Virus record (IMG/VR): IMGVR_UViG_3300032083_000290
Coordinates: 1-38,761 of that record
Length of the DNA: 38,761 bases
Direction: 5' to 3' (one strand)
DNA from: a virus
Shown: one piece after another, positions 15,513 through 19,255 of the stretch
Layout of the letters: each line of letters begins with the position of its first letter
Position numbering within the stretch: position 1 is the stretch's first letter
The notes under the pieces: model-generated
Databases searched by the model: none
Seen by the model: the letters and a program-made list of their open reading frames with translations, nothing else
What the model was told of the DNA's origin: nothing
Program-made: the position numbers and the translations under genes

Positions 15513-15538
15513 AGTATTCTCCTTTCGTTGAGAGTTAG

Positions 15539-15566: not shown

Positions 15567-15707
15567 TTATGCAAAATTCTTTTCTTGTATATTACGTTTA
15601 GCTTTACGTAAGGCTTGTCTGTCTCGCTTCCAATCATCACGTTTTTCTTTCTTGACTGTCTTCTTAACAGAAATCTTTTCAAATGTTTCGTATTTAATCT
15701 TTCGCAT
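15567..15707 (-). CDS. Very basic 46-aa protein
   Basis: Start at 15707 (M-R-K-I-K-Y-E-T-F) follows a perfect AAGGAG box. About 40 percent of residues are Lys or Arg and the rest is helical, so nucleic-acid or ribosome binding is plausible. It overlaps the ArfA-like gene by 14 bases, and the two may be expressed together. Not recognised. Confidence 0.68.
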   Translation of the reverse strand: MRKIKYETFEKISVKKTVKKEKRDDWKRDRQALRKAKRNIQEKNFA

Positions 15708-15822
15708 TGTTCTTCTCCTTCTTGCGATTGTATGAGCCTTTGCCTTTCTTGGCAAGAACTATTTGTTTACGAAAACCTCTAAGGCTTTTCGCTATTGGGT
15801 TAATAACCTTAAACTTCTTCAT
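15694..15822 (-). CDS. ArfA-like alternative ribosome-rescue factor, 42 aa
   Basis: Residues 8-34 align by eye with E. coli ArfA: N-P-I-A-K-S-L-R-G-F-R then K-K-G-K-G-S-Y-N-R-K, against N-A-I-E-A-L-L, F-R-Q-R and K-K-G-K-G-S-Y-M-R-K. ArfA enters ribosomes stalled on stopless mRNA and recruits RF2; its basic K-K-G-K-G-S-Y region occupies the empty mRNA channel. The phage version lacks the hydrophobic C-terminal tail of bacterial ArfA and has a normal stop codon, so it would not depend on message truncation for activity. GGAG box upstream, and hairpin A directly in front. Family call is by motif only. Confidence 0.72.
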   Translation of the reverse strand: MKKFKVINPIAKSLRGFRKQIVLAKKGKGSYNRKKEKNNAKD

Positions 15823-15838
15823 GGCAAACTCCATTATA

Positions 15839-15886
15839 ATAATATATATAATACTTTCATATACATTTAAGTATTATATATATTAT
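15839..15886 (-). repeat. AT-rich hairpin A before the ArfA-like gene
   Basis: Perfect 18-bp inverted repeat (15839-15856 with 15869-15886) around a 12-base loop. The stem is closed at the loop by CTT/AAG and is otherwise almost all A and T. Lies between the stop of the 244-aa gene and the GGAG box of the ArfA-like gene. Member of a five-copy family. Confidence 0.8.
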
Positions 15887-16626: not shown

Positions 16627-16656
16627 TGTATTCTCCGTAATGTTTAAGTTATATAT

Positions 16657-16698
16657 ATAATAAATATACTTTCATATACATTCAAGTATATTTATTAT
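16657..16698 (-). repeat. AT-rich hairpin B, part of a 74-base direct repeat
   Basis: 15-bp perfect arms (16657-16671, 16684-16698), loop of 12 bases, CTT/AAG at the loop end. The surrounding block 16641-16714 recurs almost unchanged at 17452-17524, differing essentially in the loop and one flank base. It begins at the stop of the 42-aa gene and ends just before the GGAG box of the 244-aa gene. Confidence 0.8.
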
Positions 16699-16705
16699 TA
16701 TATTA

Positions 16706-17413: not shown

Positions 17414-17436
17414 ATTAAACTCCGTTTAAGTTAAAG

Positions 17437-17452: not shown

Positions 17453-17467
17453 GTTTAAGTTATATAT

Positions 17468-17508
17468 ATAATAAATATACTTTCATAAATTACAAGTATA
17501 TTTATTAT
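17468..17508 (-). repeat. AT-rich hairpin C, second copy of the direct repeat
   Basis: Arms 17468-17482 and 17494-17508 are identical to hairpin B, with an 11-base loop instead of 12. The complete repeat copy spans 17452-17524 and contains the stop codon of the 71-aa membrane protein. Confidence 0.8.
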
Positions 17509-17515
17509 TATATTA

Positions 17516-18237: not shown

Positions 18238-18261
18238 TTGAAATCTCCTTAAGATATATAT

Positions 18262-18299
18262 AATAATTAATACTTCTACAAATAAAAGTATTAATTATT
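18262..18299 (-). repeat. AT-rich hairpin D
   Basis: 14-bp perfect arms (18262-18275, 18286-18299), 10-base loop, CTT/AAG closing; a further AGATATA/TATATCT pairing extends the stem after a mismatch. Sits between the 65-aa gene and the AAGGAG box of the 91-aa basic gene. The loop is nearly identical to that of hairpin E. Confidence 0.76.
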
Positions 18300-18321
18300 T
18301 ATATCTCTAAATGTTTTAATT

Positions 18322-19163: not shown

Positions 19164-19194
19164 TTTGTTTCTCCTATGTTATATATATTTAAAT

Positions 19195-19220
19195 AAACTC
19201 TTTCACAAATAAAAGAGTTT
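19195..19220 (-). repeat. Hairpin E at the predicted 5' end of the leftward mRNA
   Basis: 8-bp core AAACTCTT/AAGAGTTT with a 10-base loop; one bulge allows AAATTTATA-type pairing to lengthen it. The predicted transcription start near 19221 puts this stem at the extreme 5' end of the RNA, the position where stem-loops commonly slow 5'-dependent decay. Loop sequence matches hairpin D. Confidence 0.72.
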
Positions 19221-19227
19221 TTTAAAT

Positions 19228-19255
19228 ATTATAACCTTAGTGTTTCGTTTGTCAA
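19228..19255 (-). promoter_or_regulatory. Leftward sigma70-type promoter
   Basis: Minus strand: TTGACA (19255-19250), 16-base spacer, TATAAT (19233-19228), both hexamers fully consensus. Predicted start near 19221. Drives the whole leftward arm by host RNA polymerase, presumably early. Confidence 0.82.

Follow-up and report, generated by a model that had tools for sequence, protein, structure and literature searches.

A 42-residue ArfA-like protein in an HMO-2011-type marine phage and a possible overlooked alphaproteobacterial branch of the ArfA family

Among the closest described systems is the ribosome-rescue factor ArfA of E. coli. Its C-terminal part occupies the ribosome's mRNA channel when this is empty, and RF2 is brought in and opened by the N-terminal half (PMC5378476, PMC8012679). 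The segment equivalent to KKGKGSYNRK lies within this empty channel (PMC5378476, PMC6299226). The A18T substitution abolishes the activity of E. coli ArfA (PMC5378476); the mutant protein can bind and can recruit RF2, which it then fails to activate (PMC5378476, PMC8012679). The idea of a phage-borne ArfA is not new, since the protein has been annotated before in pelagiphage HTVC027P (gp30, with expression at early as well as late stages of infection; PMC12753301) and as g10 of Citromicrobium phage RXM (PMC8953757). Records of Brevundimonas and Pseudoalteromonas phages also bear the name. For bacteria, an nhmmer-based survey reported arfA in none of 2,376 Alphaproteobacteria (PMC11633108).

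The stretch of DNA analysed here (the window; 38,761 nucleotides) derives from an HMO-2011-type marine podophage, with a terminase, portal and DNA polymerase 68-81% identical to those of Puniceispirillum phage HMO-2011. Cultured relatives of this type have SAR116, Roseobacter and SAR11 bacteria as hosts, all of which are Alphaproteobacteria. No tRNA or tmRNA genes were found in the whole window. Its early genes are separated by six copies of an operator-like palindrome, TGTCCAACATTGGACA (at 15537, 17118, 17434, 18015, 18734 and 19332), and four palindromes resembling TTAATCTCCGATTAA lie at 17415, 17733, 17962 and 18523.

On the minus strand, the window carries an ORF of 42 codons plus stop, the ArfA-like product of which reads MKKFKVINPIAKSLRGFRKQIVLAKKGKGSYNRKKEKNNAKD. 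The features of this locus are:

15694 to 15822, minus strand: arfA-like coding sequence, ATG start and TAA stop (PF03889 above cut-off; alpha-type family alignment; pS/pN against the relative L026)
15721 to 15750, minus strand: KKGKGSYNRK segment (from the sequence; for its role in E. coli, PMC5378476 and PMC6299226)
15751 to 15822, minus strand: N-terminal half, bearing the NPIAK signature and corresponding to the part of ArfA that recruits and activates RF2 (family-level profile match)
15829 to 15832, minus strand: GGAG ribosome-binding site (from the sequence, 6 nt before the arfA ATG)
15567 to 15707, minus strand: downstream gene for a 46-aa Lys/Arg-rich protein of no family, overlapping arfA by 14 nt
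15839 to 15886, minus strand: AT-rich hairpin ("hairpin A") directly upstream of arfA (fold z -4.7 for the stretch; alignment with the relative L590)

The coordinates of the original prediction held, with the strand now given as minus, and the K-K-G-K-G-S-Y-N-R-K segment reads exactly as it had been described. A second in-frame ATG, at 15834, would lengthen the product by four residues, but the 42-aa form is the likelier one because GGAG stands 6 nt before the ATG at 15822. The predicted pattern N8-x-I10-x-x-x-L14 with F17-R18 is indeed present in the window protein, but the F-R pair is changed in close relatives (to I-K in L026 and K-R in L049). Translation ends eight codons after KKGKGSYNRK; we looked in the ORF for an ArfA-like 3′ hairpin and hydrophobic tail and found neither, there being no stable 3′ hairpin. 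The 46-aa downstream gene has its own ribosome-binding site inside arfA and is kept with or without arfA (it is conserved in L026, L590, L591 and L592).

A profile search, as had been proposed, matched the 42-aa protein to the ArfA family PF03889 (E 1.7e-6, 27.8 bits against a gathering cut-off of 25.5, residues 17-37). Because a six-frame search of the genome gave 24.6 bits for the same stretch, membership by score is borderline. The score is carried mainly by the KKGKGSYxRK half, and the same motif on unrelated N-terminal halves reaches 23-26 bits, up to the cut-off. Since the motif is found, and scores similarly, behind unrelated N-terminal halves, its presence alone proves little and the PF03889 match alone makes a weak case. 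Among solved structures, only the E. coli ArfA-ribosome complexes match the window protein, and weakly (E 0.28-0.52). NCBIfam gave nothing for the ORF, PHROGs returned weak families of no assigned function only, and a search up to E 1 gave no match of the window protein to the DUF7230 profile (PF23876).

We gathered relatives by degenerate DNA patterns for KKGKGSYxR, so that the motif is present in them by construction. Two scans found the pattern in at least 240 viral contigs, and among the matches listed 104 of 179 short ORFs also have the alpha-type N-terminal half. One rival explanation is that the window protein is a small basic rRNA- or RNA-binding protein with some other role, which shares KKGKGSYxRK with ArfA by convergence. 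Such a protein would fit the occurrence of the motif behind several unrelated N-terminal halves and inside proteins of 100-265 aa, some of them over the PF03889 cut-off, and the N-terminal half of the window protein is not, when taken alone, significantly ArfA-like (35 of 200 shuffles did as well). At the level of the family, however, the N-half profile of the branch, with the motif left out, matches the N-terminal halves of classical ArfAs colinearly (90% probability, E 1.5e-6), and the spacing from the Asn to the motif is fixed in most members. There are also transitive intermediates, such as KKQPRNVAARALADPLFRQRV, whose N-terminal half scores far above shuffles, and KRNPMAQRLANPLFRKRVVKQQKGKGSYARKGKH, a clear intermediate, and one protein of Pseudoalteromonas phage J2-1 matches both ArfA (1.1e-10) and DUF7230 (1.5e-6) above their cut-offs. 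We regard convergence as unlikely. The homology of the window protein to ArfA is well supported, and the case made by the sequences of the whole family is stronger than the lone PF03889 match.

Further ArfA-like or motif-bearing proteins were noticed. In about 25 loci besides L053, L082, L051 and L105, the N-terminal half and motif form a module inside proteins of 100-265 aa, many ending PGQWSARKAQMLA..., one of which matches PF03889 at 8e-8; they might be virion proteins into which a rescue module is built. In L023, L065, L070, L110 and others, possibly T4-like phages, APPTKVHKxKKGKGSYxRK stands in the middle of longer proteins that have no ArfA N-terminal half. A short family with an unrelated N-terminal half, xEELQxYLxFRRRGxxxxxKKGKGSYxRK, is found in L134, L170, L211 and L225. 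Roseobacter phage CRP-212 (L001:3989-4114) has a 41-aa ArfA-like ORF out of frame in the acidic 3′ end of the annotated gene gp38 (1203 aa), a candidate for an overprinted gene or for a mis-called end of gp38. The Salmonella phage Arash protein annotated "ribosomal protein L2" (L004:1905-2129) is ArfA-like, sharing 65% identity with E. coli ArfA across 34 residues.

The window protein is colinearly similar to proteins encoded in SAR11 chromosomes. All of the first six SAR11 genomes searched match PF03889 at E below 1e-3, three of them over the cut-off. Searched with the branch alignment, 147 Pelagibacterales genomes gave strong matches in 79 cases (E 6e-11 or better) and weaker ones in another 47. 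Those of the weaker matches that were inspected by their letters are short relatives lacking GKGS, MSKKRKKVKKKNPMAKLLSSPMLRNKIVKNKKKIYNRKKFKLGNE being one example; a reading of them as ribosomal protein bL34 was rejected for this reason. The SAR11 KGKGSF gene (L374-L377, L491-L517) occupies a single conserved chromosomal locus, in which a YggS-like gene, a transpeptidase-like gene and a 189-aa gene are neighbours in 31/31 cases, PfkB in 30/31 and Nth in 27/31. Beyond SAR11 the branch has a scattered distribution: at E 1e-4 or better, it is found in 24 of 372 Alphaproteobacteria genomes. The published survey might have suggested that the phage supplies a factor missing in its host class, a reading that we rejected, as the SAR11 genomes themselves match.

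These chromosomal copies also bear on the absence of a tail. The window protein does end naturally, at its own stop, as had been noted, but the tail-less form is not specific to phages, for all 31 SAR11 copies examined stop 3-10 residues after the motif. There is thus no sign of a phage escaping from tmRNA control, and regulation through non-stop mRNA, hairpin and tail does not define the wider ArfA family, given that the SAR11 copies lack it too. Classical gamma- and betaproteobacterial-type ArfAs, in our sample of phyla, do have tails, and mostly Ala or Ser at position 18. In some proteobacterial genomes (L541-L548) the tails have WEASxLLAA or similar ends, which resemble the ssrA tag degron.

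The GKGS-less proteins match DUF7230 (PF23876), some of them over its cut-off. Compared by profile, the GKGS group and the GKGS-less group match at E 6e-14, a figure for two alignments that are not independent, because part of the second was found using the first. HMO-2011 itself has an unannotated ORF of the GKGS-less, DUF7230-like form (L011:1263-1445; MRIRNTINPVAKALLQSNRNRSQVVPDKTKYNRKK...), syntenic to arfA of the window. One form or the other is carried by 8 of 11 HMO-2011-type isolates, several with diverged basic ends. In the papers searched, subscription journals aside, we found no mention of DUF7230, of the arfA-like gene of SAR11 or of the link to DUF7230.

The signature of the alpha-type branch is N-P-x-A-[K/R]. 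Counting without gaps from the motif, 59 of the 80 distinct phage proteins among the matches listed have Lys or Arg where E. coli ArfA has Ala18; in the same gapless alignment the Ala of the branch comes one residue sooner. Between the Asn and the motif the window protein is shorter by two residues, and it keeps the equivalents of Asn14 and Phe25; Phe25 is lost in some HMO-type relatives. The change at 18 and the loss of Phe25 could mean either that the N-terminal fold packs in a shifted way or that RF2 activation has been lost. The latter leads to the proposal that the protein is an ArfA-derived plug, which binds the empty channel, cannot activate the release factor, and blocks tmRNA or initiation so as to shut down host translation. 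The retained channel motif, the Lys/Arg at 18, the missing F25 of close relatives and the behaviour of E. coli A18T (PMC5378476, PMC8012679) would all agree with it. It would be strange, however, for an inhibitor to be kept in SAR11 chromosomes, where the same N-x-x-A-K proteins with natural stops are found, and the N-terminal half is conserved as a family. Activity of the alpha type is favoured because SAR11 chromosomes keep the same N-half signature, and we consider it improbable that the phage protein acts as a plug.

To compare presence and absence at the locus, we chose relatives by the neighbouring gene instead of the motif. The closest relative found, L590 (a 55,179-base contig with the neighbour gene 80% identical), has the same hairpin and flanks and is arfA-less, with no arfA detected at the locus or, in a search up to E 1, on the rest of the contig. 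L591 and L592, by contrast, have arfA with no hairpin directly upstream; a hairpin at this place is also seen in L026, HMO-2011, L162, L171 and L178. The link drawn earlier between hairpin A and arfA did not survive this comparison: the pattern rules out a specific coupling, and since L590 has the hairpin only and L591 and L592 arfA only, the hairpin belongs to the locus and not to arfA. Similar AT-rich hairpins precede other early genes of the window (16649-16702, 17460-17512, 18254-18302 and 19181-19229), the last of them overlapped by a perfect TTGACA-16-TATAAT on the minus strand (19255..19228). arfA is an accessory gene which comes and goes and is dispensable in this group of phages.

Between the window and L026, pS is 0.77 and pN 0.21 over 41 codons, indicating purifying selection, and a low pN relative to pS was seen again in most other pairs of relatives. 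A chance ORF without function, as its 42 aa, its dense small-gene region and its absence in L590 might suggest, is contradicted by this test, by conservation in L026, L591 and L592 with synonymous saturation, by PF03889 over its cut-off, by the ribosome-binding site and by family-wide conservation, and is very improbable.

We conclude that the ORF likely encodes an ArfA of alphaproteobacterial type that brings a release factor of the host to stalled ribosomes, a function deduced from homology. On a ribosome stalled at the broken end of an mRNA, the basic KKGKGSYNRK terminus would, by analogy with E. coli, go into the vacant mRNA channel, and the N-P-x-A-K half would bind in the A site and position the host release factor, presumably RF2, which would hydrolyse the peptidyl-tRNA and free the ribosome. 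With a stop codon of its own and no regulatory tail, the gene would yield its product each time the leftward operon is transcribed, and infected cells could thereby gain rescue capacity. Ribosomes on broken mRNAs probably become more numerous in infection; in T4-infected cells tmRNA remains abundant (PMC9697503).

The overlooked alphaproteobacterial branch is the most interesting outcome of this work. We lean slightly towards a view in which this branch, including the DUF7230 form, is a standard rescue factor of SAR11 and some other Alphaproteobacteria, with marine phages carrying interchangeable accessory copies and release factors being activated through a re-arranged N-terminal contact (Ala 17, Lys/Arg 18). 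If so, SAR11 bacteria and their phages would have a back-up rescue pathway missed by the published survey (PMC11633108), and DUF7230, a Pfam family without a function, would gain a testable role. SAR11 are the most abundant bacteria of the ocean, and the short ArfA form has apparently gone unrecognised in their chromosomes. The question raised is how an ArfA works when it has no small residue at 18 and when, as in the DUF7230 form, GKGS is missing as well. Sister phages that differ in having arfA at one locus amount to a natural experiment on the benefit that additional ribosome rescue may bring to a phage.

Compared with bacterial ArfA (PF03889, E. coli YhdL), the window protein shares KKGKGSYxRK, the conserved Asn and F-R and a similar active length, and at family level the alpha-type N-terminal half is colinear with that of E. 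coli ArfA. It differs in having no tail or in-gene 3′ hairpin, in N-P-x-A-K with Lys at the Ala18 position, in 7 instead of 13 residues before the Asn, and in a 2-residue deletion. HTVC027P gp30 and RXM g10 are likewise phage-borne, tail-less or short, ArfA by annotation and with the N-P-x-A signature, but belong to other phage groups, and gp30 has 58 aa with an extra N-terminal stretch. Francisella ArfT is similar in its ~40 aa, basic end, own stop and freedom from ArfA-like control by transcript truncation (PMC6299226). However, it ends in KKGGSTNKK where the window protein has KKGKGSYNRK, and recruits RF1 or RF2; no N-P-x-A-K half is described for it, and it is considered independent of ArfA. 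DUF7230 (PF23876) shares the layout N-P-x-A-K-x-L ... R-x-x-V-V ... Y-x-R-K but lacks GKGS, and the window protein itself has no PF23876 match. The SAR11 chromosomal proteins share N-x-x-A-[K/Q], the motif and the natural stop soon after it, and differ in Phe for Tyr in KGKGS[Y/F], in keeping an aromatic residue at position 25 and in their single chromosomal locus.
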